Assembly: GCA_000247545.1 (NCBI GenBank)
Contig: CP003316.1
Span: 591,233 to 655,232 of the forward strand
DNA: 64,000 bases
Direction of reading: 5' to 3'
Origin: Pyrobaculum oguniense TE7
GTDB lineage: Archaea; Thermoproteota; Thermoprotei; Thermoproteales; Thermoproteaceae
The position numbers were made by a program, and so were the translations under genes. Shown piece by piece: positions 25,932-39,608 of this stretch (within the stretch, counting starts at the first letter, position 1; each line of letters starts with the position of its first letter). The notes below the pieces were generated by a model, which was given only the letters and a program-made list of their open reading frames with translations, had not been told where the DNA came from and did not search any database.

Positions 25932-26234
25932 TTATTTCACGTAGAGGAAACCATCAGCGGTGGTACCTATAACCAATTTCCCCTCCGTCTTATAAATTAC
26001 TTGTATTTTTTGTATTGGAATTTGAAGGCCACATGAGAAGTATACAAAGTAAGTGTCGTTGCTGATTCTAAACCTACCATATACTATAATCTCCGACCCT
26101 GGATTCTCGAGGACAAGTCTCGTTGCCTGGCAAACCGCAGGGGTGGAGACGTATGGGAATATTAGGAGAAAAAGCGTGAGAACAAGTGTTGAAAAGACGG
26201 TAATTGCCACTATTTGGAGTAGGTCGTCTGTCAT
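25932..26234 (-). CDS. Small membrane-anchored protein of the pilus island
   Basis: 100 aa with one N-terminal membrane helix (residues 8-30) and a small, beta-rich external domain containing one YFSCG cysteine. The N-terminus MTDDLLQIVAITVF resembles pilin-like helices but has no clear prepilin cleavage site. It overlaps the upstream gene by four bases and is the last gene of the island. Minor pilin or assembly helper is a guess from context. Confidence 0.6.
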   Translation of the reverse strand: MTDDLLQIVAITVFSTLVLTLFLLIFPYVSTPAVCQATRLVLENPGSEIIVYGRFRISNDTYFVYFSCGLQIPIQKIQVIYKTEGKLVIGTTADGFLYVK

Positions 26235-26497
26235 GGCTTAAATCTGCAACTTAGAGCCAGTACTCTGTATGAAAGACCCGGAGGGGCATCAATAACGCCT
26301 TTTACGGCGCAGGCCACAAGACTGGTGATGCGATAAATTGCTAATGCGTCACCGCCTTCGGCATATCTAAATGTCTCAGGCCAGTAGACGAAGACGGAGG
26401 AGAGGTCTGGCTTGTTCACCTCCACCGGCTTTGCGAACAACATGACGGCTACGGCGAAGCCGAACAAGACGGGGATTAAGGCCAGCTCCAGCCTCAT
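26231..26497 (-). CDS. Small membrane-anchored protein of the pilus island
   Basis: 88 aa starting at ATG 26497, which lies about 27 bases after the shared island promoter box (26520-26529). Residues 1-22 are hydrophobic (MRLELALIPVLFGFAVAVML); the rest is a short external domain with two cysteines. A longer frame from 26551 would overlap the upstream gene and ignore the promoter. Function unknown; it forms a two-gene unit with the gene at 25932. Confidence 0.6.
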   Translation of the reverse strand: MRLELALIPVLFGFAVAVMLFAKPVEVNKPDLSSVFVYWPETFRYAEGGDALAIYRITSLVACAVKGVIDAPPGLSYRVLALSCRFKP

Positions 26498-26519
26498 GGA
26501 AATTAAATAGGGGGAGGGG

Positions 26520-26529
26520 GAAAAATTTT
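26520..26529 (-). promoter_or_regulatory. Island promoter box
   Basis: Plus strand GAAAAATTTT, centred 27-28 bases upstream of ATG 26497. It is one of seven related boxes in the island. Confidence 0.5.
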
Positions 26530-26544
26530 GAAAAAAGAGGGGTT

Positions 26545-27036
26545 TCAACAATCCACAAGCACCGCCCTAATTACAAAGCCGTAGTCCCCCTCCACCACCT
26601 CGGCGCGGAGGTCAGTGCCGCCTCTGCACAGCGCCACGTAGTGAGTAATCTTAGACCCCTCCACATACGGAAGCACGTAGGAGCAACCGGTGGCGTGGAC
26701 GGTGTTGTTAGCCGCCGTGTACGTCTTGTTTAGGAGCGCTTGCGGTATCTGTGGCGGGCAGTTGTTCCCCACTCCCAAGGCGTATAGGGGCAAGAAGACG
26801 CCGGGCTTGTCCGTCAGCACGTAGGGATGCGCCGCATCGCCTCTGGCGTAGTAGACCCTATACGCAATAATCGAAACCGGATTAGGCGCCTTAGCCGGCT
26901 TACCGGCGGCTATTGCTTCAGCTACGTTTTTCGTGTAGGGGTCGGCATGTTGTATTGTGCCGAAGACGGCTAAGGCCACGGCTATCGTAGCTAGGACAGT
27001 TGCGACGACTACGAGCAACGCCCTCAACGTCAGCAT
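26545..27036 (-). CDS. Pilin-like membrane-anchored protein
   Basis: 163 aa. It begins MLTLRALLVVVATVLATIAV, an N-terminal helix with a basic residue just before it, similar to archaeal pilin-like proteins, although no consensus KG/RG processing site is present. The external domain holds four or five cysteines, two sequons (NKT, NNT) and ends in VLVDC. It overlaps the end of the giant secreted-protein gene by seven bases, so it is co-expressed with it and may be its anchor or a minor pilin. Confidence 0.62.
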   Translation of the reverse strand: MLTLRALLVVVATVLATIAVALAVFGTIQHADPYTKNVAEAIAAGKPAKAPNPVSIIAYRVYYARGDAAHPYVLTDKPGVFLPLYALGVGNNCPPQIPQALLNKTYTAANNTVHATGCSYVLPYVEGSKITHYVALCRGGTDLRAEVVEGDYGFVIRAVLVDC

Positions 27037-29954
27037 GTTCCCACAATTTGCAACTCGCTTCTAGCGCCTTTGCGATATCCCACGCCGTCGGCCCACGTCT
27101 TGAATAACAGCTTATCCGCAGGCCTCCAGAGAGTTATGGCATCGCCTAACCTCGCCTTTACGCCCTGCGAGACAAGCGGCAAGACGCGGACCGGGTCCCA
27201 GGGGAACACTCTAGAGGCGTTTACCAGCACGCACCTCACGGGGAAGAGCACGTCTCCAACCACCTCCCCCACCTTGACCCACTTCCCATCCCGTTGTAGA
27301 TAAAACGCGAAGCCGACCACTGGGCCGTCTGCCGTGATCTTTACAAGTCCTCTGGCCCAGTCCACCACCTCGAAGATGGGGCGGGAGTAGGCGTCTTCAA
27401 CCTTCACGACGCCCCAAAGCTGGATAAAGCCCCAGAAGTCTCCCGAAACCGTCAGCTGGGAGGTGTCGGCCCAGACATCTCTGCCGTACTGCGTCTTGGC
27501 GGCTATCCGCGTTGATGTGCAGGTAAATGGGTACTGCCTCCCGCCCTCCCCAAGGCCGTACAGCCCGTGGAAATACGGCGCGCCGTTTAAGAAGAAGGAG
27601 ACGGTTTGGACCAGCCCAGGAGACGTCAACACGTCCGGAGCCGGGGTGGTGGTGTTCACCACAAGAGACACGTCGTCGGATATCACAAAGGCCCCCTCAT
27701 ACCGCGTGTTGTTAATTTCCACCACAATCTTAATGGGCCCAGCCCAGCCAAGCGGCGTCACGTATATGGCGCGGCCTCCAAGCGGTAGAGACTCGCACGG
27801 GCCTAGGGGGCGGTAGCTAATCCACCAGCCGGGGCCCGCGAAGACGCTGTCGAGAGGCCTCCACTCCCTGGAAATCTCGGCGAGTAGGTAGTCCGAGACC
27901 TCGCGGCGTGTTCCGTCAGGCTGGACCACGTAGCCCATCTCTACGTAAATCTTCACGTCGGCGTAGGCCGGCTTGCCCAGCCAGGTGAACATGAAAGAGT
28001 AGCCAGCCCCCGGCAAGGCCAAGTCGGGGGTGGGCGGCTGGGCGGGGCCCCACAGCTCCGCAACAACCCGTAGGCATACAGCCCCTCTACACGCGGTGGT
28101 GGGGATGAGGGAGATGAGAAACGGCCCTGGGTCTGTGACTATTGTGGAGGCGCCCAGCGGCGTGGCGTCGGCGAAGCCCGGCGCCGCGGAGACATCAAGT
28201 ACGTCTTGCAGACCCTCAGGCGCCCACGCAGGCCCCGCCGCGGCGTGGTAGAGCTTATCTGCCGTGTAAGGACTCCGGGTGGTCTTCTTATACTGCTCGT
28301 GGCCGTACATCTCGTAGACGAGAGACGCGGCGTGGGGCGGAGACAGCGTGACGGAGCCCTCTATATCCCAATCCCCCGTCTGTGGGTTAAAGGCCCAAGA
28401 CCTAATCCGGTACGCGTGCCAGAAGTACAGGACGGGGTCCCCCCACAGCAACTTCATCACGTCGCCGGCACCGCCTAGAAACCAGTTGTGAATACCCAAG
28501 AAGTCGACGAGGACGATTTTGTTCATCGGCCAGCCCCTTCCCTGCGGGCCGACTCTCGAATACCCCACCCACGTGCCGTTTACCTTGGTGTACACGTGCT
28601 GGGCGTATACGCAACGGTATACGGGGCTGGGCCACTGGCTACAGGGATAGGGGTGGGAGTACCAAGCCGTCTCGATCCTCGGCGTAGTGGGATCAATGCC
28701 CATAGCAACAGAGGCCGGGTTTATGCCCTTAGGAGGCTCGCTATACGCCGAGTCTATGGAGAAGACGAGCTTCTTCCTCTTGCCAAGCTCTTCGTAGTCC
28801 ATGTAATTGCCGTCTGAGTCCACAGCCCTAAGCGATGTGGGGTAGGAGGCAACCCACGCCCTCCTGCCCTCTATGTCTAGTAGCCACAAAACCGTCACGT
28901 CGGCGCGGATGATTGAGCCGTAGGGCGCCTTTATCCTCACTTCGCGGCCTATTAAGTCGGCCAAAGCCACGTACGGCCTTAGCCAAAACGGCGTCTTGTA
29001 TGCAATGGAGGCGAGGGTGAACTCCCAAGTCCACTGATCGCCTCTCCACGTGGCGTTACCAGCCGTGCTGATCAAGAACGAATCGGGCGGACTTGCAAGA
29101 GACCGCCAGTCCTGGGTCGGTAGCTTGACGATGCGGGAGATGTACAGCGGGACGGGCCTGGGGGGCTTATAGACTATCTCCCCCCAGTCCGCCGGCTCTC
29201 CAATAGCGCGTATGTTGACGCTTCTCAGAAAGGAGCCGCCGCCTAGGTCAGTAGTTAGGGATGTGGTGCCGGAATAGGCCCAAGGATTCGGCATCTTCAC
29301 GACCACCCCGTATGCGGAGTACTCCCCTCCGGCCGGCACGCCGTTGACCATTAGGGCATTCCACCAGCCGGGCCCAGAGGCTGTGGCTGTGTTTTCCTTG
29401 CTGTACGGCACACAGACTGGGTAGCAGTAGTCGGTGAAGGGGCAGTAGTAGTAGACGTCGCTACACACCGGAGAGTAGTAGTGTTGCGGAGGCACCGCCA
29501 CCCTCAGCACGCGGCTGTCGGCGTAAGACGGCCTATCCCTCGGCACGGTGAAGGTAAAGGTGGTTGTTCTCGTGGACGGCTCCTCTTCCACCTTGTAGAA
29601 GTAGTAGATGTAGCCATATGTGTCGTTGCACTTGTAGCGACCGAGCACCCAAGAGCCGTCGAAGTGGCTCACCTTTACTGTATACACGAGGTCTCTGTCC
29701 CAAAGAGCGCTTTGGGCGCTCGACGCGAGCCTCACCTCTGAGCGGTTGGCAAAGGCGCGGCTCCAAATGTAGACTCTGGGGTCGTTCATGCCGCCTAGTT
29801 GTAACACCTCGCCCCAGTAAGGCGCGAGAGCGCCGAAGCTGAATGAGATAACCGCGTCTGCGTACTGGGCGTAGTCCACCTCGCCAACGCGCTCACAGCC
29901 GACTCCGCCCAGCGCAAGGGCAACAGTTAGGAGCAGGAGCGGGAGGAGCCTCAT
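27030..29954 (-). CDS. 974-residue secreted surface protein
   Basis: Residues 1-19 are a clean signal peptide (MRLLPLLLLTVALALGGVG) followed by Cys, a lipobox-like junction. The mature protein is rich in Tyr, Trp and Pro with many beta-strand-like stretches and cysteines, and ends without a membrane anchor. No enzyme motif was recognised. This looks like a large adhesin or tip protein for the surface structure encoded beside it. ATG 29954 is chosen over the upstream start at 30068 because the signal peptide then begins the protein and a GATAAACCTT box lies at 29977-29986. Length and composition suggest an extracellular role; the specific function is unknown. Confidence 0.7.
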   Translation of the reverse strand: MRLLPLLLLTVALALGGVGCERVGEVDYAQYADAVISFSFGALAPYWGEVLQLGGMNDPRVYIWSRAFANRSEVRLASSAQSALWDRDLVYTVKVSHFDGSWVLGRYKCNDTYGYIYYFYKVEEEPSTRTTTFTFTVPRDRPSYADSRVLRVAVPPQHYYSPVCSDVYYYCPFTDYCYPVCVPYSKENTATASGPGWWNALMVNGVPAGGEYSAYGVVVKMPNPWAYSGTTSLTTDLGGGSFLRSVNIRAIGEPADWGEIVYKPPRPVPLYISRIVKLPTQDWRSLASPPDSFLISTAGNATWRGDQWTWEFTLASIAYKTPFWLRPYVALADLIGREVRIKAPYGSIIRADVTVLWLLDIEGRRAWVASYPTSLRAVDSDGNYMDYEELGKRKKLVFSIDSAYSEPPKGINPASVAMGIDPTTPRIETAWYSHPYPCSQWPSPVYRCVYAQHVYTKVNGTWVGYSRVGPQGRGWPMNKIVLVDFLGIHNWFLGGAGDVMKLLWGDPVLYFWHAYRIRSWAFNPQTGDWDIEGSVTLSPPHAASLVYEMYGHEQYKKTTRSPYTADKLYHAAAGPAWAPEGLQDVLDVSAAPGFADATPLGASTIVTDPGPFLISLIPTTACRGAVCLRVVAELWGPAQPPTPDLALPGAGYSFMFTWLGKPAYADVKIYVEMGYVVQPDGTRREVSDYLLAEISREWRPLDSVFAGPGWWISYRPLGPCESLPLGGRAIYVTPLGWAGPIKIVVEINNTRYEGAFVISDDVSLVVNTTTPAPDVLTSPGLVQTVSFFLNGAPYFHGLYGLGEGGRQYPFTCTSTRIAAKTQYGRDVWADTSQLTVSGDFWGFIQLWGVVKVEDAYSRPIFEVVDWARGLVKITADGPVVGFAFYLQRDGKWVKVGEVVGDVLFPVRCVLVNASRVFPWDPVRVLPLVSQGVKARLGDAITLWRPADKLLFKTWADGVGYRKGARSELQIVGTC

Positions 29955-29976
29955 GAACGCCGGGAGGTGTAAGAGG

Positions 29977-29986
29977 GATAAACCTT
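29977..29986 (-). promoter_or_regulatory. Island promoter box
   Basis: Plus strand GATAAACCTT, centred 27-28 bases upstream of ATG 29954. Identical to the box at 32084. Confidence 0.55.
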
Positions 29987-30771
29987 CAACTCGGCGAGGG
30001 CGGTTGCGGGGGGTTCGGAGGGCTGATATCCGCCGGCTCGCTGTGCGTATATGCCGACAGCTCTTCATCCCAACAACTAAGGGGCAGAGCCAGGGGGTAG
30101 TCCACCACGTATATCCCCACCGCCTCTACAGGCGCCGAGACGTACAGCGTATAGGCGCCGTCTGGCCTCCTCACCAGCGCCCACTCGGCCTTGGCCAGCT
30201 CCACGAAGGCGAATTCCGGGTAGCCGTAGTACCGCAAGCCGTAGTAGGGGTCGCCTAGGAGAAATACGGGCGGCTCCCCCCGGCTCTTGTACAAGCCGTA
30301 GTAGTACTGGAGCATCACCGTCAAGTTGCGCGGAATTAAGGCGTAGACCTCTAGCCAAGGCATCAGCTGTGGGAGAGCCACATCCACTACGTACAGCACT
30401 GCCGGACTACCTGAACTAAAGACAGCCGGCCTACACTCCCTAAGCCCCAGGTATACGGCATATTTGAGGTTGCGCTCGGCCTTTTCGCCCTTGTAGGCGT
30501 AGGGGAGGTAGAGGGGGAAGTAGACCACCCCCAGCTGGCCGTCGACAGCCGGCTTATACGTCTTCACCACGTACGTCACGTTCACCCCCTCGTTGAAGGC
30601 TGTGAGGTTGTCGGTGACGAGCCACGGGCGGTAGGCGTATAAAACCCTCTTGGCGTTGTAGAGCTGGTCGGCGATGTTAACCGAGGCAAAGCTGGGCGCG
30701 TGCAATGCGGCGTACATCACCACAAACGAGACCAGGGCCAGGGCTATTAGGCCGTATGTAACAGACCACAT
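29986..30771 (-). CDS. Membrane-anchored surface protein, pilin-like N-terminus
   Basis: 261 aa with a single N-terminal helix (MWSVTYGLIALALVSFVVMY) and a Tyr-rich external domain with NLT and NVT sequons; it ends in a Pro/Ser-rich tail. It begins one base after the preceding stop, so the three genes 32061 to 29986 form one unit. No family was recognised. Minor pilin or pilus-associated protein is inferred from position. Confidence 0.6.
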   Translation of the reverse strand: MWSVTYGLIALALVSFVVMYAALHAPSFASVNIADQLYNAKRVLYAYRPWLVTDNLTAFNEGVNVTYVVKTYKPAVDGQLGVVYFPLYLPYAYKGEKAERNLKYAVYLGLRECRPAVFSSGSPAVLYVVDVALPQLMPWLEVYALIPRNLTVMLQYYYGLYKSRGEPPVFLLGDPYYGLRYYGYPEFAFVELAKAEWALVRRPDGAYTLYVSAPVEAVGIYVVDYPLALPLSCWDEELSAYTHSEPADISPPNPPQPPSPS

Positions 30772-30772
30772 A

Positions 30773-31570
30773 TCAACTACACAAGTAGAAGTAGACGTCG
30801 GCGCCTTGGCCCCAATCGATCGCCCATGTGTCGAGCACGTATACAGTCAGGCGTAGATTCCCCACGCTTGCAGAAAAGCCGTATTGTGCAACATATCCGT
30901 TTCCGGTAAACGATACCTTGTTCCCATCCTGCTCGACGTTAAGGTCGCTCACGCTACCCGAGGAGTACTTCTCCACGCTTGCAGGCGCGGCTGGGCTACA
31001 AGTGACGCCGGGGGCCTCTCGTACGAGTTGCCCCGTGGCTTGGTCGATCCACAAGGTGGCGTATCCGGGGCTTGAGCTACTACAGAAGTCAGCACTTGTG
31101 GAGCCCCATGTCACATGGACGTTGTTGCGGCAACTATGGGGGTAGCCGTGGTGGTACGTGATTTCTAGCTTGAGGAACTCGGCGGGGTGCAGGGGAGGAG
31201 GAGTATACGACACGGCGTAGCTAACCCCCACTATGGGCTCCTCACCGGCGCACGAGACGTAGGCAATCCCCCCAACCACCCAGAGGTACATAGGCCGCGG
31301 GTGGCAAGAAGCGGCGTAGCCCGGCCTAAGCGGCCTCCCGTCCATATACGCCCAGCCGTACCTCGCCAATTGCCTCTCCCCCAGCTGAATCGCGGCGTAG
31401 TTGCCGTACTGGACAATTGAGTACGGCCCCGCTAGCTTAAAGGCGCAGTCCGAACACGCCGGCACAGGCGATATACCCTCTTGTACAGGAAACAACGCGG
31501 CGATAAACACGGCGGCGATCATTGCCAGGCCGGCGAATATCAAGATGTCGCGTAGGGCGATCATGGACAC
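30773..31570 (-). CDS. Pilin-like membrane-anchored protein
   Basis: 265 aa. The N-terminus MSMIALRDILIFAGLAMIAA has a basic residue followed by a hydrophobic helix, as in processed pilin-like proteins, but lacks the canonical glycine. The external domain contains cysteine pairs (CSDC, and CSS near the middle) and is Ser/Tyr/Pro-rich. The start lies inside the end of the upstream gene (10-base overlap); ATG 31564 is an alternative. Function unknown, likely structural. Confidence 0.62.
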   Translation of the reverse strand: MSMIALRDILIFAGLAMIAAVFIAALFPVQEGISPVPACSDCAFKLAGPYSIVQYGNYAAIQLGERQLARYGWAYMDGRPLRPGYAASCHPRPMYLWVVGGIAYVSCAGEEPIVGVSYAVSYTPPPLHPAEFLKLEITYHHGYPHSCRNNVHVTWGSTSADFCSSSSPGYATLWIDQATGQLVREAPGVTCSPAAPASVEKYSSGSVSDLNVEQDGNKVSFTGNGYVAQYGFSASVGNLRLTVYVLDTWAIDWGQGADVYFYLCS

Positions 31571-32061
31571 CTGTACTGCACAAGCAACCAGCGGCCCCTA
31601 GACGTAACGCCGATGGGGGTGCACCCGCCAACATCCCTCGGCTCATAGGGGGGCGGGCACCACAAGCCGTTGTAGGGGTCTGGGCCGATGCGGACGGGGT
31701 AGGGGACGTACTTCTGGCAACGGTATCCTCCTGGATACACCTCAAACACAGCGACGAGGCGGCCTGGGATGCCGGCCGCTTGCCTAAACGCCTCCGCGTC
31801 GCTACCCTCGTACTCCACGGCGTAGATGTGGACGCGGCCGTTGGCGTCGGTGTCGTTGTAGACGTAGATCTTGCGGTGGGGGACGTCCTTCGAGGGGGCG
31901 GCGGGCGCCTCCACTATCTTGGACTGGGGGAAAGGCGCCATGACCGCCAGCGCGAACATTACGAGGGCGGCTGTGGCTAAGGCGAAGACAGCAGCCGCCA
32001 CCACGTCCTCCACTCCGCGTAGCCTCAACGCCCTGGCCCCGCCTTGCGGGGGACTCGCCAT
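31561..32061 (-). CDS. Type IV pilin-like protein
   Basis: 166 aa. The leader ends in RALRLRG at residues 10-16, a class III (prepilin) signal, followed by a hydrophobic helix (VVAAAVFALATAALVMFALA). Glu is at +2 rather than +5. The external domain contains four cysteines and a YVPYPVRIGPDPYNG stretch. It opens a three-gene unit and has a GATAAACCTT promoter box at 32084-32093. A minor or accessory pilin is likely. Confidence 0.7.
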   Translation of the reverse strand: MASPPQGGARALRLRGVEDVVAAAVFALATAALVMFALAVMAPFPQSKIVEAPAAPSKDVPHRKIYVYNDTDANGRVHIYAVEYEGSDAEAFRQAAGIPGRLVAVFEVYPGGYRCQKYVPYPVRIGPDPYNGLWCPPPYEPRDVGGCTPIGVTSRGRWLLVQYRCP

Positions 32062-32083
32062 AAGCGCACCTCCTCCCTAAGCG

Positions 32084-32093
32084 GATAAACCTT
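32084..32093 (-). promoter_or_regulatory. Island promoter box in the divergent regulator/pilin region
   Basis: Plus strand GATAAACCTT, centred 27-28 bases upstream of ATG 32061. It nearly abuts a TTTAGATTTA element (32092-32101) that is placed to start the divergent regulator gene at 32125. Confidence 0.55.
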
Positions 32094-32124
32094 TAGATTT
32101 AGTCACTAGCAATAAGCCCCAGAC

Positions 32125-32370
32125 ATGCCCAGGAGGGGTGGCGAGAAGATGGTGTTGATCTCTATGCATCTGCCGCAGAAGATGCTCCAGCAGATAGAGG
32201 AGCTAGTGAGAAGCGACCTCTACCCCAACAGAAGCGAGCTAATCCGCTCGGCGATACGCGAGCTGTTGTTAAAACACAAAACTGGCGCAACACAGAAAGA
32301 AAAGCCGAAAGAGGGGGCCGAGGCGGAGGCCAAAGAGGAGGACCTCCCCCTCCTTAGGGGGGGGGGGTGA
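32125..32370 (+). CDS. Ribbon-helix-helix (CopG-type) transcription regulator
   Basis: 81 aa. Residues 10-45 form a ribbon-helix-helix fold: the strand VLISMHLPQ, helix KMLQQIEELVRS, then YPNRSELIRSAIRELLLKH. The tail is Lys/Glu-rich. It is the only plus-strand gene of the island and lies back to back with a pilin-like gene, so it is a candidate regulator of the island and of itself. Its last codons fall in a run of 11 G (32357-32367) directly before TGA; slippage there would alter the C-terminus. Confidence 0.85.
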   Translation: MPRRGGEKMVLISMHLPQKMLQQIEELVRSDLYPNRSELIRSAIRELLLKHKTGATQKEKPKEGAEAEAKEEDLPLLRGGG

Positions 32371-32379
32371 AAAAAAGAC

Positions 32380-32396
32380 ATTTCTTTTTCTTTCTT
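32380..32396 (+). terminator. T-rich terminator of the regulator gene
   Basis: A pyrimidine tract (ATTTCTTTTTCTTTCTT) starts ten bases after the regulator stop, as expected for archaeal intrinsic termination, and reaches the stop codon of the convergent gene. Confidence 0.4.
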
Positions 32397-33372
32397 ACTC
32401 TTCAGCCCTCTTCCTCCGGTAGACGAACAAGGCAACTAGGACCCCTCCCAGCGCCAACAACAGTATCGACAAGGCGTTGAAGCCGCCGCCTTCTTCTTCG
32501 GTTGCTTGTAGCTGGAGCTGGGAGAGCTGCAGTTGCAACTGCTCCACCTTGGAGGCCCAGGTCTTGTTAAGCGCTTGGACCTTCTCTCTCAAGGCGTTTG
32601 CCTCCGCCCTCGCGGCCTCCAGCTGTCTTCTTAACGCATCGGCTTCGTTCTTGGCGGCCTGTAAGGCAGATAGCAGAGACTGAATCTGGGCGTCTCTGGC
32701 GCGCAACGCGTCTTCGAGCGCCTTGCGTTGCCTCTCCAGCTCCGCGATTTTTGCAGAGAGCTGAGCCACGGCCGACTCAAGCGCCGTCTTGTTCTGCGAG
32801 AGCGTCTGTAGCTGTTTCTTCAAGTCGGAGAGCTGGGCGTAGAGCCTCCCCAGCTCCATTACTAGGGAGTAGTTGTGCTGGGGGATTTGGAACACCGATT
32901 TGGTGGCGGGGTCGTAGTACCAGCCGGCTGGCGCCACGTTGTGGAACACGCCGATTGGGGTTTGCACAGTGGCGTTGGTGGCGTTTACGAGCTCAACTGG
33001 GCCGACGTAGGCGGAGAACCTCAGCAGTAGCCACCTCAGCGGCATCCACATGGTGCCGTTTCCGCAATAGACGTCGGCAGCCCACAACACTGTGTAATCG
33101 TCTATTTGCGCGGCGTTTTTCACGTCCACAGCCACGTATCTACAAAGGGAGTAGAGGTATTGCATCACGGCGTTGTGCTCCTCCGGCGTGCCGAGGAAGA
33201 GGAGGCCTTCTTGCTTGACGTACACAGTCTCACCGCCTAGATACGCGGCGAAGTGGGTGGCGTTGACAGGGCTGGCCGGAATTATAAGCGCGCCGGGGGG
33301 GTACCAAGATACCCACTGCCCAGCCGCCGAGGCCGCCAACACTGCTAGCGCTAATGTTACAAGCCTGTACAT
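32395..33372 (-). CDS. Coiled-coil surface protein with C-terminal membrane anchor
   Basis: 325 aa. Signal peptide at residues 1-18 (MYRLVTLALAVLAASAAG), an external globular domain to about 165 with NAT/NTS-like sequons, a long Leu/Gln/Ala-rich coiled coil (about 170-290), a membrane helix (about 300-318) and a basic RRKRAEE tail inside. This architecture is that of a stalk protein standing off the membrane, and could connect or space the pilus and the S-layer. It has its own promoter box at 33396-33405. No family name is supported. Confidence 0.68.
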   Translation of the reverse strand: MYRLVTLALAVLAASAAGQWVSWYPPGALIIPASPVNATHFAAYLGGETVYVKQEGLLFLGTPEEHNAVMQYLYSLCRYVAVDVKNAAQIDDYTVLWAADVYCGNGTMWMPLRWLLLRFSAYVGPVELVNATNATVQTPIGVFHNVAPAGWYYDPATKSVFQIPQHNYSLVMELGRLYAQLSDLKKQLQTLSQNKTALESAVAQLSAKIAELERQRKALEDALRARDAQIQSLLSALQAAKNEADALRRQLEAARAEANALREKVQALNKTWASKVEQLQLQLSQLQLQATEEEGGGFNALSILLLALGGVLVALFVYRRKRAEE

Positions 33373-33395
33373 GAAAACGGGGTGAGGGAGATGAG

Positions 33396-33405
33396 GAAAA
33401 ATCTT
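33396..33405 (-). promoter_or_regulatory. Island promoter box
   Basis: Plus strand GAAAAATCTT, centred 28-29 bases upstream of ATG 33372. Same sequence as boxes at 33931 and 35790. Confidence 0.55.
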
Positions 33406-33422
33406 GGGGTTTGAAAAACGGC

Positions 33423-33908
33423 TTACGAGATGCCTATTGTGACTACGCCCTTGGCGATTTGGACAGCCTTTCTCGTATTGCCGTCTATGGCGTATATAAC
33501 ATACGTATACTGCTGGCCTGGGCTAAGCGAGGCAGTGAACCTACAGCTTATAGACTGCCCCGCAACTAGCGCCGGGTTTATGTTGTATCTGGGCACTCCG
33601 CTTGCAGGCGATGCGGTGACGGTAGGAGGCGCTACACAGCCTTGTGATTGTGTAGATACTGTCGTAGATGGGTTGACGATGCGTAGCTCTATACCCTCTA
33701 GCTTGCCGTTCAGCACCTCCACAGTCACGTCGAAGCCTCCCCTATCCGCTGTCACAATTGCGTTGACCCTAAGCGCTTCCGACACGGACTTGCCCATCCC
33801 CTGGAACACCATCACCCCTATCACGCCGACTATTATAAACGCTGCCGCTACTAGTAGCGCCTCTATCGTGGTCATGCCCCTAAGCCTTAGGCTTTTGGGT
33901 TTGGGCAT
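33423..33908 (-). CDS. Type IV pilin (major pilin candidate)
   Basis: 161 aa. The N-terminus MPKPKSLRLRG is a class III leader with cleavage expected after Gly11. The mature protein starts MTTIE, placing Glu at +5 as in canonical type IV pilins, and continues with a hydrophobic assembly helix (ALLVAAAFIIVGVIGVMVF). The C-terminal domain is beta-rich with two cysteines and Ser/Thr-rich loops. It has its own promoter box (33931-33940), as expected for the most abundant subunit. It lies just downstream of the TadC-like platform gene. Confidence 0.82.
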   Translation of the reverse strand: MPKPKSLRLRGMTTIEALLVAAAFIIVGVIGVMVFQGMGKSVSEALRVNAIVTADRGGFDVTVEVLNGKLEGIELRIVNPSTTVSTQSQGCVAPPTVTASPASGVPRYNINPALVAGQSISCRFTASLSPGQQYTYVIYAIDGNTRKAVQIAKGVVTIGIS

Positions 33909-33930
33909 GAAACAGCCGTGAAGAGGGGCG

Positions 33931-33940
33931 GAAAAATCTT
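33931..33940 (-). promoter_or_regulatory. Island promoter box (pilin)
   Basis: Plus strand GAAAAATCTT, centred 27-28 bases upstream of pilin ATG 33908. Confidence 0.6.
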
Positions 33941-35138
33941 AAAGAAGGAAGGCTAGCAACGCGTATTGCAAAGAGGCGCCGGCCGCGCCTCCAAGAGCGG
34001 CGGATTTGTGCAGGCCCATGGGCATGAGGAAGACGGTTATGAAGCTGGCCGTCACCAGGGCTAGCATAGTGGAGACAACCGACCTAACCTCCTCGTAGGG
34101 CGGCGGGGAGAAGAATGGGTTTACTGCTTGGGCATCTTCAAGCGCCTTCACCGCCGTCGATACGGAGTGGGCCAGTATGAACACGGCGGCGATGAACAGG
34201 GCGAACACGGCCATGGACATCTTCACCATTTTCCTCACTGCGTGGGCCTCGATATCCACAAGGGACTGTATGTACTCCACGGCCTTAACCGCAGTGGCGC
34301 CGCCGGCCTCAGTAATGGCGCGGAACATGGACTTGGCTAGTACAAAATACTTCGACGGTATGAAGTAGCCGTACGCTGCCTTCATGGCGGTTTTGTACTT
34401 CCCCACGAGGCGGCCTAGGATGACATCTGGCGGAGCGCCCTCCTTCAACATGGCCGCTGCAGACCTAAGCATCGGCGGCACCTCCCTCGCAATGGAGAAC
34501 CACCACAGCCTATCCTTGGCGTAGAGCCAAGCCCAAGTAACTACTCCAAATACGGCGAAGGCCTCCAAGGGGCGGCCCAGCAAAGCCATGGCCACTCCGC
34601 CAAACAAGCCGATGGGGAGCGACCACTCATACGTCCTCCACAAGTTGAGATCCCTCGGCATGTTGACGTAGGCCACCGCGCCGATGCCCGCCACTGTGGC
34701 TAGCAGGATGGCGTATAACAACGCCGGGTCAATGCTCATGACCCCGATGGCCCATATGAAGAGTAGAAACAGCGGCGTCAGAAAGAGAGCGCCCAGCGCC
34801 GACGTTATGGACTCATAGGTCTTAGCCCTAGCCTCGGCCCTAGCCGTGGCCACGGCCTTCATGGATTCGAGAAAGGAGTGGACCAGCACGTTTCTGTCCA
34901 CGCCGGCCTCCTCCTGGGCTAGGGCGTAGCCGAATAACCTCACCGCCTCTTCCTTGTCCTCTATAAAGTAGGAGGAGGGCGTGGGCATAAGAGAGGCGAC
35001 GAAGAGGCGGCGCGACTCCGCCTCATTGAGTTCGGCCGTGTTTATCGAGGCGAACTTCAGCGCCTCGTTGCCAGAGGCTACGCCGAGGTACGTGGCGAAG
35101 ACTGGGGCAGTTGTCAGGTAGTACTCCTCCCTACGCAT
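33939..35138 (-). CDS. TadC/FlaJ-like type IV pilus platform membrane protein
   Basis: 399 aa polytopic membrane protein with two groups of helices (about 115-170 and 305-399) separated by cytoplasmic helical segments: the layout of TadC/GspF/ArlJ platform proteins. Segments such as REVPPMLRSAAAMLKEGAPP are typical of the type II secretion F domain. It would hold the secretion ATPase encoded at 35805 and extract pilins from the membrane. ATG 35138 is used; a TTG two codons upstream is less likely, since a GAAAAAGCTA box lies at 35160-35169. Confidence 0.8.
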   Translation of the reverse strand: MRREEYYLTTAPVFATYLGVASGNEALKFASINTAELNEAESRRLFVASLMPTPSSYFIEDKEEAVRLFGYALAQEEAGVDRNVLVHSFLESMKAVATARAEARAKTYESITSALGALFLTPLFLLFIWAIGVMSIDPALLYAILLATVAGIGAVAYVNMPRDLNLWRTYEWSLPIGLFGGVAMALLGRPLEAFAVFGVVTWAWLYAKDRLWWFSIAREVPPMLRSAAAMLKEGAPPDVILGRLVGKYKTAMKAAYGYFIPSKYFVLAKSMFRAITEAGGATAVKAVEYIQSLVDIEAHAVRKMVKMSMAVFALFIAAVFILAHSVSTAVKALEDAQAVNPFFSPPPYEEVRSVVSTMLALVTASFITVFLMPMGLHKSAALGGAAGASLQYALLAFLL

Positions 35139-35159
35139 GGCCAAGAGAAGGGGCGGGTG

Positions 35160-35169
35160 GAAAAAGCTA
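35160..35169 (-). promoter_or_regulatory. Island promoter box, variant
   Basis: Plus strand GAAAAAGCTA, centred 26-27 bases upstream of ATG 35138. It departs from the consensus in the last four bases. Confidence 0.4.
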
Positions 35170-35496
35170 GAATAGGTTTCTGAGCACTTCGCGGATGTGC
35201 TCCAGCTTGCCGGCCTTCTCCACGGCCTCTGGCAACTCCCTCACGGCTTGTTGTACAGAGGCGCCGGAGGCAACGCGCCGGATGACGTAGTCCACGGCCA
35301 TCTTGAGGAATTTTGACAAGTCGAGAGCCCTCGCGACTATGCGCCAGTCCTCGGCCTCAAGCCACACGCCGTGCCTCGCCAGCTTCAACACGGCCTTTCG
35401 AAAGGCCTTGGGCTTTACGCCGAGCTCCTTTGCCATCTCGGCTATCCACCTCTCTGTGGCTTCTGTAAGCGTGGGCTTAGGCTTGGCGCTGAGCAT
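35167..35496 (-). CDS. Helical hypothetical protein of the pilus island
   Basis: 109 aa, soluble and almost entirely helical, with a short Lys/Pro-rich start and segments WIAEMAKELGVKPKAFRKAV and AVDYVIRRVASGASVQQAV. The start lies inside the upstream gene's end (20-base overlap), so the two small proteins are translationally coupled. It sits between the secretion ATPase and the platform genes, suggesting a cytoplasmic adaptor. No family recognised. Confidence 0.6.
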   Translation of the reverse strand: MLSAKPKPTLTEATERWIAEMAKELGVKPKAFRKAVLKLARHGVWLEAEDWRIVARALDLSKFLKMAVDYVIRRVASGASVQQAVRELPEAVEKAGKLEHIREVLRNLF

Positions 35497-35767
35497 TGAG
35501 AAGCACCAAGGCCAGCTTCACCACTGGGTCGTCCTCCCTAGCCTTTATGACCTCTACCAACACGTCGCTGGGGATACAGCCCACCACCTTAGACAACGTC
35601 TCCGGCGGCATCGACACAAGCGCCTTGGCTAATAACATTTGCCAATTTTCCTGCGCAGCCTCAAGTTTCGGCATTTCCTCCATCAAGGAGGCCGACGGGG
35701 AGGGAGCTAAAATATGTTCAGGCTCCTCAGCTATGGCCTTTAATCCACCCTTCTTGACCCTAAGCAT
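35477..35767 (-). CDS. Helical hypothetical protein of the pilus island
   Basis: 96 aa. Basic MLRVKKGG start, then a Pro/Ser-rich stretch and two helices (AQENWQMLLAKALVSMPPET, then PSDVLVEVIKAREDDPVVKL). ATG 35767 is chosen since a GAAAAATCTT promoter box (35790-35799) lies upstream; the frame is open to 35857 but that extension overlaps the ATPase gene. Cytoplasmic partner of the secretion ATPase is a guess from position. Confidence 0.55.
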   Translation of the reverse strand: MLRVKKGGLKAIAEEPEHILAPSPSASLMEEMPKLEAAQENWQMLLAKALVSMPPETLSKVVGCIPSDVLVEVIKAREDDPVVKLALVLLNAQRQA

Positions 35768-35789
35768 GGGTGAAGGATGGGGTGAGGGT

Positions 35790-35799
35790 GAAAAATCTT
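35790..35799 (-). promoter_or_regulatory. Island promoter box
   Basis: Plus strand GAAAAATCTT, centred 27-28 bases upstream of ATG 35767. Confidence 0.55.
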
Positions 35800-35804
35800 G
35801 AATT

Positions 35805-37334
35805 TTAGGAATAACCGAATTGCCTAGCCTCGTCCTCAACCGCGGTCTTGAAGTCAAGTCTCTCTAGCCACAACGTTTCTAAAATTACTCGCCTGGCGGA
35901 GGCCGGGTCTTCGGTCTCCGCGGCCTTGGCTAAAGTCTCCACTCTGAGCATAAGCTCTTTTCTCAGCTCTACGCCGTACATCTCTCTAACGTAGGCGTCT
36001 AGTTTGGGGGTAAGGTCAGCCGGCTCTGTAATTCTCACTTCGCGACCTTCTGTAACAATCGCCTTTACCTCCTTGACGTAGCGCGTTGACCCAATTGCGG
36101 AGAGCTGTATTACCAACGTTCCGTCAAGCCCCTCGGGTGGCGCCTCTGCTTCTGTTATGCGGAGCAAGGCGTCTTTGACGGTGTCGGCGTGCATGGTGGT
36201 AAGCGCCCCGTGGCCCGTCAGCTTGTAGTTGACTAACGTACGGAGCTCTTGCGGCGTCCTGGCCTCGGCCAGCGCCACCACGGTGTGCATTGTTCCGTAG
36301 CGGAGGGCTTGGTCGAGGGCGGCCCAGAGCTTCTCCTCCGACGGGACAGAGAGGTGCAACAGCTGGCCCTCTAGAGGCGCCCAGATCTCCCGGGCGCCGC
36401 GCTCTACTACCACCACTTGGAACCACGGCGGAGTCATGTACAGCAGTTGGTTCAGCTGGGTGGTCTTGCCTGTGCCCATGGCGCCGGAGAACACCACACT
36501 GCCCCTAGTCTCCAGCACCAGAGACGCTAATGCCAGCACCTCCAGCCCCTCAGGAGAATGCCTAACGCCTACGGCGGCGGGCTCCACCGTAGCTTTGGTT
36601 ACGTATGGCTTTAACAACGACTTAGAGGGCTTGGGGTATGCGGAAACCTTTCTAATATTGACGTTGTACTCCAGCAAGTCGGCGGCTATCCTCGCCTTGT
36701 ACACAGGGTCTTCCCGGGTGAGCATGGGGCGGTCCATGGTCAGAGACGGCAGTAGTTGCTTGACGACGATATACATGAGGGGCTCCGGTATGACGATGTT
36801 TGTGGGAAGCCGTAGCTCATTTCTAACCGCAACAACGCGCCTGTAGCGGCCCAGCTCCACGGTCTGGAACCGGATGTACTCCAGTTGCTCCTTGAGGCTC
36901 TTGGGGACGTAGGTGTACTTCGCCGCAGGCGCAGTGGGCTGGGGTATTACGATCTCCGTGAGAAGGGGGTCCCGCATGAGCGCCTCCAGCGCCCCGTAGC
37001 CTGAGTATTCGCGGGCGCCGGACCACCGGTCGAGGAGGTAGTGCACCGTGTCGCGGTAGTCCTTGTAGAGGCGCCAGATGGTTCTATCCCTCAGCCCCTC
37101 GGCCACGGACTTTATGACTTTGGGGTACTCCCTCTCGTCGGGGGGTATCCCGCCTCTGTACATGACGAGTAAAAGCGTTGTCTGGAGGTCGTCCGGTAGC
37201 TCCGGGTCTATCACCACGTACATGAGGTCCTCGGTTATGCAGACGTCTGTCCTAACGCCCTTGTCCACAATTACGCCTTCTTTTTTCAGCCAACAGCGGG
37301 AGCGTAGGGCGTTGTCGGCGTGGGCGTAGATCAT
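35805..37334 (-). CDS. Type II/IV secretion-family ATPase (TadA/VirB11/GspE-like)
   Basis: 509 aa. The C-terminal motor has Walker A GAMGTGKTT (residues 284-292), the Asp-box region VVVVERGAREIW (E311), a Walker B-like VVALAEART (E357) and the His box TTMHADT (H382). The N-terminal half is the usual variable domain of archaeal secretion ATPases. It should power pilus assembly through the TadC-like platform. It overlaps the ParA-like gene by four bases (ATGA) and ends the first operon of the island. Confidence 0.87.
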   Translation of the reverse strand: MIYAHADNALRSRCWLKKEGVIVDKGVRTDVCITEDLMYVVIDPELPDDLQTTLLLVMYRGGIPPDEREYPKVIKSVAEGLRDRTIWRLYKDYRDTVHYLLDRWSGAREYSGYGALEALMRDPLLTEIVIPQPTAPAAKYTYVPKSLKEQLEYIRFQTVELGRYRRVVAVRNELRLPTNIVIPEPLMYIVVKQLLPSLTMDRPMLTREDPVYKARIAADLLEYNVNIRKVSAYPKPSKSLLKPYVTKATVEPAAVGVRHSPEGLEVLALASLVLETRGSVVFSGAMGTGKTTQLNQLLYMTPPWFQVVVVERGAREIWAPLEGQLLHLSVPSEEKLWAALDQALRYGTMHTVVALAEARTPQELRTLVNYKLTGHGALTTMHADTVKDALLRITEAEAPPEGLDGTLVIQLSAIGSTRYVKEVKAIVTEGREVRITEPADLTPKLDAYVREMYGVELRKELMLRVETLAKAAETEDPASARRVILETLWLERLDFKTAVEDEARQFGYS

Positions 37335-38035
37335 GCCGTCTTGATTCGCGTTATGATCTGGTCTATTGATTTTTTGTTTTCCCGTTCTCTTAATAGATCG
37401 TTGGCGATTGCCTCCCCGTAGTACTCCCTTATCTTAACCCGCCTAATAGTCACTGGCGCTATCTTTTTCGCCATCTTCAACTCGTCTTTCTCTAGCATAT
37501 TCACTACTGCAAGGGATGAGTAGGTGAGGTACCGCCTATACTGCTCAGACTTGATGTCTGAGATGCGCGATATCAGCCTCCTATCCGCCACGAAGATGTT
37601 GTAGGCGCCCATATGCTGGAGCTTGGCCAATATCTCAGTTCTCAAGGCGGCCGGCGTGTCCAAAATTACCACATCAACAGGTATTCTTAGTTTGGCCACG
37701 AATTTTGGAAAGAACTCAACCCATTCCAGTAAAGCTTCAGAGAAGCCGCTGACGGCGTCTTCACCCTCTCGCTGGTAGATCTCGTATGCCTCGTATCCCG
37801 GCATGACGTATAACATGGGATTCACTCTGTGCAGGTAGGGGGCCGTCCCTTTCAGGAAAGGCGCAAGCCAGCCGGGCTTCCTCGGAGCCCTAAACAACTG
37901 GGAGAGATCCGCCTTCTCCCAATCCATGTCTACAAGAAGAGCCATGCCCTTCTCCACGCCCAGCGCCGACGAGATAGTCGTCTTCCCAACGCCTCCATCA
38001 AGCGACGAAATTACAACGATTTTCAGAGCCCTCAT
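37331..38035 (-). CDS. ParA/MinD-type ATPase (TadZ/CpaE-like)
   Basis: 234 aa. Deviant Walker A LDGGVGKTT at residues 12-20, in which the usual first lysine of KGGxGKT is Asp13; switch region LLVDMDWEKADLSQLF; Walker B VDVVILDTPAAL. MinD-type ATPases of this kind (TadZ, CpaE) position Tad pili at defined sites in bacteria. Loss of the signature lysine, which normally senses nucleotide across the dimer, suggests altered ATP use. It overlaps both neighbours by four bases. Confidence 0.82.
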   Translation of the reverse strand: MRALKIVVISSLDGGVGKTTISSALGVEKGMALLVDMDWEKADLSQLFRAPRKPGWLAPFLKGTAPYLHRVNPMLYVMPGYEAYEIYQREGEDAVSGFSEALLEWVEFFPKFVAKLRIPVDVVILDTPAALRTEILAKLQHMGAYNIFVADRRLISRISDIKSEQYRRYLTYSSLAVVNMLEKDELKMAKKIAPVTIRRVKIREYYGEAIANDLLRERENKKSIDQIITRIKTA

Positions 38036-38331
38036 AACAACTCTGACAATCTCTCGTAGATGTAGCGCGTCGCCGCAATTTTTATGACATGGCTATCCGC
38101 CACTTTTCCAACCTCTTTTTCTATCCATTTCAAGACGTAAGACGCGGTCTTAATATCAGAAAGGTCAGAAAGCCTAAGCAACGACGGCCTGAGCCTTACT
38201 CCACGTCCCTTTATATTTAACAAAACAAGCTTAGCTGCAATGCAGATATCCTTATACATATTATAGAATTCCCGGTTCTCGCATTTCCTAGTCACGAGGT
38301 TAACAAGTGAAAGAGTTTTTCCATCAATCAT
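38032..38331 (-). CDS. Small helical hypothetical protein in the pilus operon
   Basis: 99 aa, basic and helical, with KDICIAAKLVLLNIKGRGVR near the middle and a C-terminal helix ending RLSELL. It overlaps the upstream gene by eight bases and the ParA-like gene by four, so it is part of the same operon. No family recognised. Confidence 0.58.
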   Translation of the reverse strand: MIDGKTLSLVNLVTRKCENREFYNMYKDICIAAKLVLLNIKGRGVRLRPSLLRLSDLSDIKTASYVLKWIEKEVGKVADSHVIKIAATRYIYERLSELL

Positions 38332-38920
38332 AGCATTCCTTCAACTTCTCGGGGTTCTCGACTACCTTTTTAAGAACCTCGACATAGAAAGGATCCCTCT
38401 CGACTAGGTCTGAAAGGACTCGCAATACTTCTCCCAATACCCACTCACTTCTCGACACGGCGGCCCGGCTCCTTTCACTTTTCTCCAGCTCTCTATTCTC
38501 GAGCCTTTTTACCACGACCTCGGGTTCTTCGCAGACTACAGGATACTCGTCACACAGACCCGCGAAGCGTAGCACCTCGGGATTGATCTGAAAAACTGGG
38601 ATTTTGTCCACGGCTGTGGCGTATTCAACCAACGCTCTGACCGCCGCCCTCACCTCTGATCTGTTGAATTCCTTCACAAATGTAGCTACGGGACATCCGA
38701 CGTTGTGTGGCTTGACCCGGCCGTATACTACTGCGAAGTCTCCTGCAACTGCGGCAATGTAGATCACGACGAGTCTCTCACCCCCGCACTGGCGGGTCAG
38801 CAAGGAGGGGTCCGAGAGATATTCTTCCTTAAGCAAATAGACCCCCTTTGGCGGATAGCCCCAATACATCTCCCATCCAGCCCCCAGTCTGTTTCTGACC
38901 TGTTCCAATACCGCCGACAT
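38324..38920 (-). CDS. Hypothetical protein in the pilus operon
   Basis: 198 aa with a compact alpha/beta N-terminal part (strands VVIYIAAVAGDFAVVYGRV) and a C-terminal helical part ending in FYVEVLKKVVENP. ATG 38920 comes four bases after the stop of the gene before it; an upstream start at 38968 would overlap that gene. It does not match any family known to me. Soluble, so probably a cytoplasmic component or regulator. Confidence 0.58.
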   Translation of the reverse strand: MSAVLEQVRNRLGAGWEMYWGYPPKGVYLLKEEYLSDPSLLTRQCGGERLVVIYIAAVAGDFAVVYGRVKPHNVGCPVATFVKEFNRSEVRAAVRALVEYATAVDKIPVFQINPEVLRFAGLCDEYPVVCEEPEVVVKRLENRELEKSERSRAAVSRSEWVLGEVLRVLSDLVERDPFYVEVLKKVVENPEKLKECYD

Positions 38921-38924
38921 AGCC

Positions 38925-39608
38925 CTAGGACGACTCGTACAAAAGTTCGGCGCCGCCTTTTTTTGCACAACCCGGCGACCCGCACAAAGGCCCCGTTCTG
39001 CCTAACATTAAGTCGATATGGGCCATGCGTCCTGTGTCAAGCCAGTAGAGCCATTCGGCAAGGTGGCGGTGGTACCTATCTCTCCACTTGCTCCACGCCA
39101 CCCATACATAACCCTTCTCCCTTCCAAGTTCCCTAAGCCACGGAGGGAAGGCGCGTCTGAATACTTCAAGCGGCCTCCTCCTCGGCACTGTGGTGACCCA
39201 GTGGAAGATGGAAGATGCCCTATAACGCCAAATATACATGCGCCGCTTGTCCAGCACAGTTAAGAGAAAACAAGGCGACACTTGCAACCTCACGTCTATA
39301 TACCCGCCTTGCGCTAATGGCGGCCAGCGGGCTCTCCACCGAGGCTCGACATATCCGCTTTCTATATAAAGAAGCCACTCCTCTTTAAAACGCCCTCCCA
39401 CGCTTAACCCCCTAAGCCCTAGGTGAAAAGCCTCGGGATTTTCTAATGCGAAGCTTACAAGTTCGCCAACATCATGGACTAGGTGGCCAAACCTTCTGAG
39501 CAATTCGTCCACCATCTCTTCGCCGAGAAGTAGCGCCCAGTCCGCGGGATCCGCGTGAAGGAATATACATGGGTCCACCTTGGGCTTATACACATTTAGG
39601 TATACCAA
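38925..39608 (-). CDS. Hypothetical protein, first gene of the pilus operon
   Basis: 227 aa, rich in Trp and Arg, with FHWVTTVPRRRPLEVFRRAF and VAWSKWRDRYHRHLAEWLYW. There is no signal peptide or membrane helix. The start is uncertain: TTG 39608 is the longest, GTG 39593 is possible; a TTTAAAAA box lies at 39610-39617. It leads a tightly overlapping run of five genes ending with the secretion ATPase. Function unknown. Confidence 0.55.
   Translation of the reverse strand: MVYLNVYKPKVDPCIFLHADPADWALLLGEEMVDELLRRFGHLVHDVGELVSFALENPEAFHLGLRGLSVGGRFKEEWLLYIESGYVEPRWRARWPPLAQGGYIDVRLQVSPCFLLTVLDKRRMYIWRYRASSIFHWVTTVPRRRPLEVFRRAFPPWLRELGREKGYVWVAWSKWRDRYHRHLAEWLYWLDTGRMAHIDLMLGRTGPLCGSPGCAKKGGAELLYESS

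Follow-up and report, generated by a model that had tools for sequence, protein, structure and literature searches.

A probable subclade 4G type IV pilus locus in Pyrobaculum oguniense and a cytosolic module that recurs at Ted loci

The pili of the Thermoproteales are the most diverse in the Archaea, and the fact that they are there suggests that important sides of hyperthermophile biology have yet to be discovered (PMC4858521). Among them, Makarova et al. (2016, PMC4858521) catalogued from genomes the subclade 4G pili, which are confined to Pyrobaculum and Thermoproteus. Besides a PilA-type pilin, a FleN/MinD ATPase and a diverged ATPase and TadC, these have two small helical proteins and two large ones. 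Profile similarity has been reported between TadZ of the bacterial Tad pili and arCOG05608 (Denise et al. 2019, PMC6668835). Also found in the Thermoproteales is the DNA-exchange system Ted, which resembles type IV secretion and has a VirB2-like pilin (Beltran et al. 2023, PMC9905601).

The window analysed here, a stretch of 64,000 nucleotides from the genome of Pyrobaculum oguniense TE7, contains an island of 17 genes, all placed on the minus strand between 25932 and 39608 by a check of open reading frames and strand. Its products are a pilin with Glu at +5, a secretion ATPase, a membrane protein resembling a platform, six small membrane-anchored proteins (a-f), a coiled-coil protein and a secreted protein of 974 aa; in addition there are five small cytosolic proteins (k, j, i, h126 and h109) and a MinD of divergent sequence. 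From the first gene of the operon onwards, with arrows marking the cleavage point of pilin leaders, these are:

k227, 38925-39608, minus strand: cytosolic protein of unknown fold; first operon gene, TTG start
j214, 38324-38920, minus strand: cytosolic protein of unknown fold
i99, 38032-38331, minus strand: small helical protein with Cys
FleN/MinD-type ATPase, 37331-38035, minus strand: fits Makarova's arCOG05608 by description; signature Lys changed to Asp
Type IV pilus assembly ATPase, 35805-37334, minus strand: fits Makarova's arCOG05609 by description
h126, 35477-35767, minus strand: small helical cytosolic protein; conserved part, Met start at 35767
h109, 35167-35496, minus strand: small helical cytosolic protein
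TadC-like membrane platform, 33939-35138, minus strand: fits Makarova's arCOG05611 by description
Major pilin, 33423-33908, minus strand: class III signal ...RLRG↓MTTIE; invariant Cys pair
CC325, 32395-33372, minus strand: signal peptide, coiled coil and C-terminal membrane anchor
f166, 31561-32061, minus strand: minor pilin-like; retains the leader RLRG↓VED
e265, 30773-31564, minus strand: minor pilin-like; first ~124 aa conserved, C-terminal domain variable
d261, 29986-30771, minus strand: minor pilin-like; begins at mature residue 1, against MKG↓QWS in the Thermoproteus type
BIG974, 27030-29954, minus strand: secreted, Cys-rich, with an N-terminal signal peptide
c163, 26545-27036, minus strand: minor pilin-like; RG↓ leader retained in genomes G015 and G016
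b106, 26231-26497, minus strand: small membrane-anchored protein; Met start at 26497
a100, 25932-26234, minus strand: minor pilin-like, leaderless; in-frame stop two codons upstream

The first-pass annotation had described a one-strand, pilus-type gene set, and its open reading frames do lie at the place and on the strand it gave; the four further membrane-anchored or pilin-like proteins that it counted are present but number six, and five cytosolic helpers are to be added to them. The island is not a chance assembly, because seven other Pyrobaculum genomes carry all 17 genes in the same order, an eighth carries them all except the coiled-coil gene, which is undetectable there, and the genes are under purifying selection, with dN/dS values of 0.07-0.69 that are below 1 wherever dS is finite (14 genes, those other than k, j and i). 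The core of the island is kept in three Thermoproteus-type genomes, and nearly all complete Pyrobaculum/Thermoproteus genomes examined carry the locus. At the thresholds used, the ATPase found no full-length match outside Pyrobaculum/Thermoproteus among 81 genomes of the class, and the MinD none among 45 genomes of the order. Because the genes flanking the window island are common to other Pyrobaculum islands, the window island appears to be a vertically inherited, resident copy. One genuine case of decay was encountered, in genome G014, where an insertion splits the pilus ATPase; with order intact across the genus and dN/dS below 1 in the tested genes, it is scarcely credible that the island as such is silent or decaying.

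Among the island proteins, the assembly ATPase alone passes a Pfam cut-off (PF00437, 38.3 bits against 24.9), and no NCBIfam model passes for the ten proteins searched. The Walker A motif and His box of this ATPase are conserved, and its best solved relatives, identified by PDB profile matches, are the archaeal GspE-type 2oap (E 2.6e-12) and FlaI (1.7e-8). The platform protein has about five hydrophobic segments and adjoins the ATPase and pilin in other islands as well, but it matches no Pfam platform family, gives no profile match to the other platform genes of the genome and has no detectable relative outside the group. Its designation as TadC-like, already made at first pass, is a tentative one drawn from position, transmembrane helices and the apparent fit to arCOG05611. 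The major pilin reads ...RLRG↓MTTIEALL, conforming to a signal R/K-G↓xTTxE followed by a hydrophobic helix and then a beta domain, and the canonical +5 Glu reported earlier is kept in every Pyrobaculum copy. Its best fold and profile matches are the Natrinema type IV pilins 8gi2 and 9myg; in the fold comparison, made with an AF2 model (pLDDT 71), Natrinema PilA2 and PilA1 ranked at the top, although their TM-scores were low, near 0.3. Fibronectin domains retrieved by a phmmer search of the pilin against the PDB were judged to reflect chance beta-domain similarity. The absence of a prepilin peptidase from the island is no anomaly, because elsewhere in the genome a 196-aa membrane protein shows a weak A24 match (E 1.5e-4; 23.3 bits, below the 26.5-bit cut-off) and is a candidate for this enzyme.

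In Pyrobaculum, some of the minor pilins start at what would be the N-terminus of a cleaved pilin, while f, d, a and c each have an M(K/R)G↓ or RG↓ leader in at least one Thermoproteus-type genome; the counterpart of a100 in G014, for example, reads MKG↓VEEL. CC325 shares 39-80% identity with its paralog and with its counterparts in seven Pyrobaculum islands; in genome G010 no counterpart was detected. The 974-aa secreted protein noted at first pass is confirmed, the start at 29954 being chosen over a 1012-aa open reading frame for the signal peptide it yields, which resembles that of the orthologs. BIG974 shares 31-42% identity with its counterparts in eight other Pyrobaculum and 19-24% with that in G016; profile searches gave no family or PDB match, and a structure model from three sequences reached a pLDDT of 33. 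That it might be an adhesin or tip protein is a guess.

The deviant ParA-like ATPase recognized from the outset is indeed deviant: its Walker A motif reads SLDGGVGKTT in place of KGGVGKT, 15 orthologs have the Asp without exception, and the protein as a whole is nonetheless nearest to archaeal MinD. A MinD relative without the signature lysine would offer a clear test of switches that work without the usual dimer chemistry. The MinD/FleN gene adjoins the ATPase in 15 of 15 islands, that of G014 being counted by its split N-terminal half. Around it, k227 is 49-69% identical across nine other Pyrobaculum islands, with diverged relatives upstream of MinD in a second P. oguniense island (island 2), in G013 and upstream of Ted; j214, for which Met 38920 was preferred to the listed start at 38968, avoiding overlap with k, is 38-57% identical in nine Pyrobaculum islands and has a relative adjoining Ted in G012; i99 is 47-55% identical in eight Pyrobaculum islands, and i-type genes (i2a-d) occur in island 2 and adjoining Ted; and h109, also present upstream of Ted, is 36-95% identical over 14 loci.

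The island is probably an unusually complex, Pyrobaculum/Thermoproteus-specific type IV pilus of subclade 4G in a resident chromosomal copy, the arCOGs being matched by description. Also present in it are the two small helical proteins, the large signal-peptide protein, the C-terminally membrane-anchored protein and the conserved cysteines of that subclade; the 4D system, recognizable by its TFIIB neighbour, is a separate locus of the P. oguniense genome. The island is therefore a known but uncharacterised kind, rather than a new machine, and the earlier emphasis on unfamiliar components was half right, as the gene set fits the catalogued 4G pili. The accompanying proposal of a distinct surface appendage with its own adhesin is well supported as regards an appendage with a candidate adhesin, whereas secretion, though possible, is not the favoured role. 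To our knowledge, no 4G filament has been studied, no fibre has been assigned to this locus and no filament is made of the pilin encoded at 33423-33908.

From these parts we infer a filament, adhesion and roles for the helper proteins. A prepilin peptidase encoded outside the island would trim the major pilin, whose subunits the ATPase and TadC-like platform would push out of the membrane; the six minor pilins, some without a cleavable leader, may start or cap the fibre, and an adhesin and a surface collar, located at its tip or base, might be provided by BIG974 and the anchored coiled-coil protein. In the cytosol, k, j, i, h126 and h109 would join the Lys-less MinD in a base module by which the machine is positioned or switched.

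Alternatively, the island might encode a machine akin to type II secretion, with no long fibre but a short pseudopilus that exports the 974-aa protein or other proteins. In keeping with this are several minor pilins, an ATPase nearest the archaeal GspE-type 2oap and the presence of one large secreted protein among the operon products, but the pilin has the full archaeal type IV pilin layout, BIG974 is supplied with a Sec-type signal of its own and archaeal cells lack an outer membrane that would have to be crossed; we regard such a machine as unlikely. Acquisition of a bacterial-type Tad pilus by an archaeon is far less probable. A MinD-like ATPase does adjoin the ATPase and TadC-like gene, and TadZ resembles arCOG05608 (PMC6668835); yet there is a single platform gene, the pilin is long with a beta domain, and no TadB/TadC pair, Flp pilin, secretin RcpA or TadV is found among the operon open reading frames; the original label of a Tad-like island was a loose one. 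Among the genomes searched (81 of the class for the ATPase, 45 of the order for the MinD), the system is found in Thermoproteaceae only, and Denise et al. derive Tad from archaeal pili and not the reverse (PMC6668835).

A connection with DNA exchange is suggested by the recurrence of the module k-j-i-MinD-h126-h109 directly upstream of the Ted genes, including that for the VirB4-like TedB. At distances of 1.0-2.3 kb from TedB stand seven MinD genes that are not accompanied by a pilus ATPase (chance ~0.002 per gene), and six of them have h126 and h109 adjoining. Two pilus islands even continue straight into Ted: P. oguniense island 2 is followed after 1.1 kb by VirC1-TedB-HerA-RadA-TedC-TedA at ~509-519 kb, the TedC there being a relative of 8dft (E 3e-9), and contig C15 of genome G007 runs CC-f-e-d-BIG-c-b-a and then VirC1-TedB. 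Since the same base module stands at Ted loci, the 4G pilus would be expected to bring cells into contact, which in some lineages would serve DNA exchange. In the Sulfolobales, the cell contacts for DNA transfer are made by a type IV pilus, Ups, which acts with the Ced importer. It is enticing to speculate that the 4G pilus is mainly a contact organelle of DNA exchange and the Thermoproteales counterpart of Ups, the shared module acting as a dock, at one and the same site, for the pilus or for the Ted importer. The placement of the ATPase-less MinD genes and the two continuous islands speak for this tentative reading, but no full TedB was found in seven genomes that all carry the pilus (G001, G004, G005, G006, G010, G015 and G016), and the window island has no TedB, TedC or TedA beside it, the nearest intact TedB, the only one of the genome, being ~117 kb away. 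As most pilus-bearing genomes are without TedB, a DNA-transfer role of the window copy is hypothetical.

A compound proposal, more speculative still, holds that the 4G pilus and the Ted importer might be two outputs of one base module; that composite pilus-Ted elements spread among Thermoproteaceae; that the window island is a resident pilus whose central tract was exchanged with an incoming copy; that the pilus makes DNA-exchange contacts; and that some minor pilins need no prepilin processing. As no tRNAs, exact flanking direct repeats or (by eye) integrase were found round 485-535 kb, mobility of this region is argued from its absence from P. arsenaticum (PMC3558965, Table 5), from the presence of more than one Ted copy and from the unusual position in G013; none of the published P. 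oguniense inversions has pilus islands at its ends. The sharing of the module with Ted looks new; in the literature consulted, no earlier description was found of it, of the loss of the MinD lysine or of the leaderless minor pilins. If the base module is truly common to Ted, it ties surface pili to DNA exchange in a testable way, in organisms from which Ups and Ced are said to be absent, and the two machines would have six parts in common, all of them proteins with no known function.

Of the described systems, the 4G pili share most with the island: a diverged ATPase and a putative TadC, a PilA-type pilin, a FleN/MinD ATPase, several minor pilins, a signal-peptide protein, a C-terminally anchored protein, two small helical proteins and conserved cysteines. 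The published account of 4G (PMC4858521) is without k, j and i, which the island has, and is silent on the module shared with Ted, the MinD lysine loss and the leaderless minor pilins. The type IV pilus of P. arsenaticum (Par_PilA, PDB 6W8U; PMC7347861), an archaeal pilus of a near-identical species, resembles the island in the Cys pair of its pilin and in an N-terminal helix followed by a beta domain; its pilin is nevertheless a different one, and the window pilin gave no PDB match to Par_PilA. The bacterial Tad pili likewise unite an ATPase, a TadC-like protein and a ParA/MinD-type protein, from which the island differs in its one platform gene, its other pilin and the lack of a secretin and TadV. 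The Ups pili may serve as a functional model for a pilus that makes DNA-exchange contacts; their gene set is simple. As for Ted, none of its genes lies near the window island, but the Ted loci of Pyrobaculum have the island's own k/j/i-MinD-h126-h109 module directly upstream of VirC1-TedB.

On the minus strand of the window, ORF reading places 17 mostly abutting or overlapping genes, the widest gap (about 330 bases) lying between f166 and CC325:

From 39608 downward, minus strand: k227, j214, i99 (small cytosolic proteins), MinD, ATPase, h126, h109 (small cytosolic proteins), TadC-like protein, PIL (major pilin)
Continuing down to 25932, minus strand: CC325 (coiled coil), f166, e265, d261 (minor pilin-like), BIG974 (974-aa secreted protein), c163 (minor pilin-like), b106 (small, membrane-anchored), a100 (minor pilin-like)

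Only the ATPase among these proteins clears the Pfam cut-off, and Pfam matches to MinD are weak. By tblastn of each gene against the corresponding place in other genomes, all 17 are present with conserved order in seven further Pyrobaculum genomes (G001-G006, G009), bearing out the first-pass proposal of a one-strand pilus-type island; an eighth (G010) has 16/17, CC325 alone being undetected. Three Thermoproteus-type genomes carry a more divergent, partly reordered core of MinD, ATPase, h109, TadC-like protein and pilin, with several minor pilins. ATPase identity is high across Pyrobaculum (71-85%), and exposed proteins show low identity (e.g. BIG974, 31-42%). For the 14 genes from MinD to a100, compared with a second island of the same chromosome (island 2), G001 or G003, dN/dS is below 1 wherever dS is finite. 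Other Pyrobaculum and Thermoproteus-type genomes share part of the flanking genes, so the window copy looks old and vertically inherited. The flanking genes at 22345-25768 resemble, by eye, histidine degradation genes (imidazolonepropionase-, histidine ammonia-lyase- and arginase/formiminoglutamase-type) and are kept beside the island in G003. Elsewhere, the pilus ATPase gene of G014 is cut in two by an insert of about 7 kb (L050:10540-17920) containing TnpB-like and HD-domain-like ORFs, both named by eye.

The closest relatives of PIL, both by its predicted model (pLDDT 71) and by profile search, are Natrinema type IV pilins, the TM-scores being low (about 0.3). Leaders of the minor pilin-like proteins vary: Thermoproteus-type f and d begin MKG↓Q or MRG↓Q, a in G014 begins MKG↓VEEL, and RG↓ leaders are found on c in both G015 and G016. 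In Pyrobaculum, the N-termini of a, d and mostly f (MIEE, MWS, MED) coincide exactly with those expected after cleavage. A longer a100 start is ruled out by stop codons that most copies have in frame two codons ahead of it; d and f usually have no (K/R)G site in the upstream frame, and P. oguniense f retains its leader (RLRG↓VED). In e265 (window:30773-31564), the first ~124 residues are conserved and the C-terminal domain is missing in several genomes, suggesting an exchangeable tip module.

Island 2 is followed by genes of Ted, the archaeal DNA-exchange system:

G000:C1, 494.7-507.6 kb: island 2

It falls inside a stretch (485-530 kb) that P. arsenaticum is listed as lacking (PMC3558965). 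Compared with the window copy, per-gene dS and sliding identity show it to be mosaic: dS is 0.15-0.8 from ATPase to c163 (ATPase 0.41, c163 0.15), whereas MinD (1.38) and a100 (saturated) are far more diverged. The same strand continues, about 1.1 kb past its a100, with ParA/VirC1-like, TedB (VirB4-like), HerA-like, SWIM, RadA-like, TedC-like and TedA-like genes, the TedC-like protein being related to the solved pilin 8dft (E 3e-9). Across G000:C1:485000-535000 (L037, L053, L112), ORFs of 3604 and 876 aa follow the Ted set, and neither an integrase nor a tRNA was found.

The association recurs. In G007, contig C66 stops within CC325 and C15 starts within it, running f-e-d-BIG-c-b-a, an h126 relative, VirC1 and TedB; we infer that the two adjoin. 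Directly upstream of VirC1-TedB, the Ted loci of both G003 and G009 have MinD, in most cases together with i-type, h126 and h109 genes; the order is that of the pilus island, but ATPase, platform and pilin genes are absent. Relatives of k, j or i also occur near TedB in G012, G002 and others. Of the MinD family genes counted, fifteen adjoin a pilus ATPase and another seven are 1.0-2.3 kb away from TedB. Outside both groups are a Thermoproteus-type gene of G013 and, in G004, a short fragment; the truncated C7 gene probably continues in a fragment at G009:C4. The MinD tree unites five Ted copies in a single clade (100/100), nested with Pyrobaculum pilus copies. G003 has three TedB copies and G009 five, most with MinD-h126-h109 directly upstream (L087, L088, L090-L095), giving the appearance of a multi-copy element, not of one domesticated system. 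Full TedB is missing from seven pilus-bearing genomes, and the pilus therefore works without Ted; a role of the window copy in DNA exchange is a hypothesis. No published description of the shared module was found in the literature searched, which took in only some of the subscription journals.

G013, the MAG Thermoproteus sp. UBA157, has Thermoproteus-type island neighbours and its own MinD, yet its ATPase falls within the Pyrobaculum clade (100/100) and one MinD groups with island 2 (91/97). Its island was thus likely acquired horizontally, with the caveat that G013 is a MAG. At L038 (G013:C4), a Pyrobaculum-type island adjoins an orphan Thermoproteus-type MinD-h126-h109 remnant; the original copy was likely replaced through horizontal transfer.

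A separate system of G000 corresponds to the published 4D system, which has a TFIIB neighbour (PMC4858521):

L061:4577-8536 (G000:C1, 2392.6-2396.5 kb): 4D pilus-like ATPase, membrane partner and TFIIB-like gene

A divergent candidate prepilin peptidase lies a few genes away. The window island itself agrees point by point, its TadC-like platform as a candidate, with subclade 4G, a set of type IV pili that Makarova et al. 2016 (PMC4858521) described from the Pyrobaculum-Thermoproteus group: diverged ATPase and TadC, PilA-type pilin, FleN/MinD ATPase, one C-terminally membrane-anchored protein, one large protein with a signal peptide, a varied set of small minor pilins, two small, helical proteins of the cytosol, and conserved cysteines. 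Full-length ATPase matches (E 1e-20, 81 genomes of the class) and MinD matches (E 1e-10, 45 genomes of the order) were confined to Pyrobaculum/Thermoproteus. The island is a real, conserved and uncharacterised type IV pilus island, its kind having been listed in 2016, and the first description of its components as unfamiliar holds only in part. What merits further work is its link to Ted and the lysine-less MinD. The latter, annotated initially as a deviant ParA-like ATPase, is indeed one: all 15 orthologs carry S(L/V)DGGVGKTT, with an invariant Asp replacing the ParA/MinD signature lysine, and the closest solved structures are archaeal MinD (1g3q, 1ion). The reported similarity of bacterial TadZ to arCOG05608 (Denise et al. 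2019, PMC6668835) agrees with the earlier suggestion of a Tad-like system. The pilin of the solved P. arsenaticum pilus differs from PIL.
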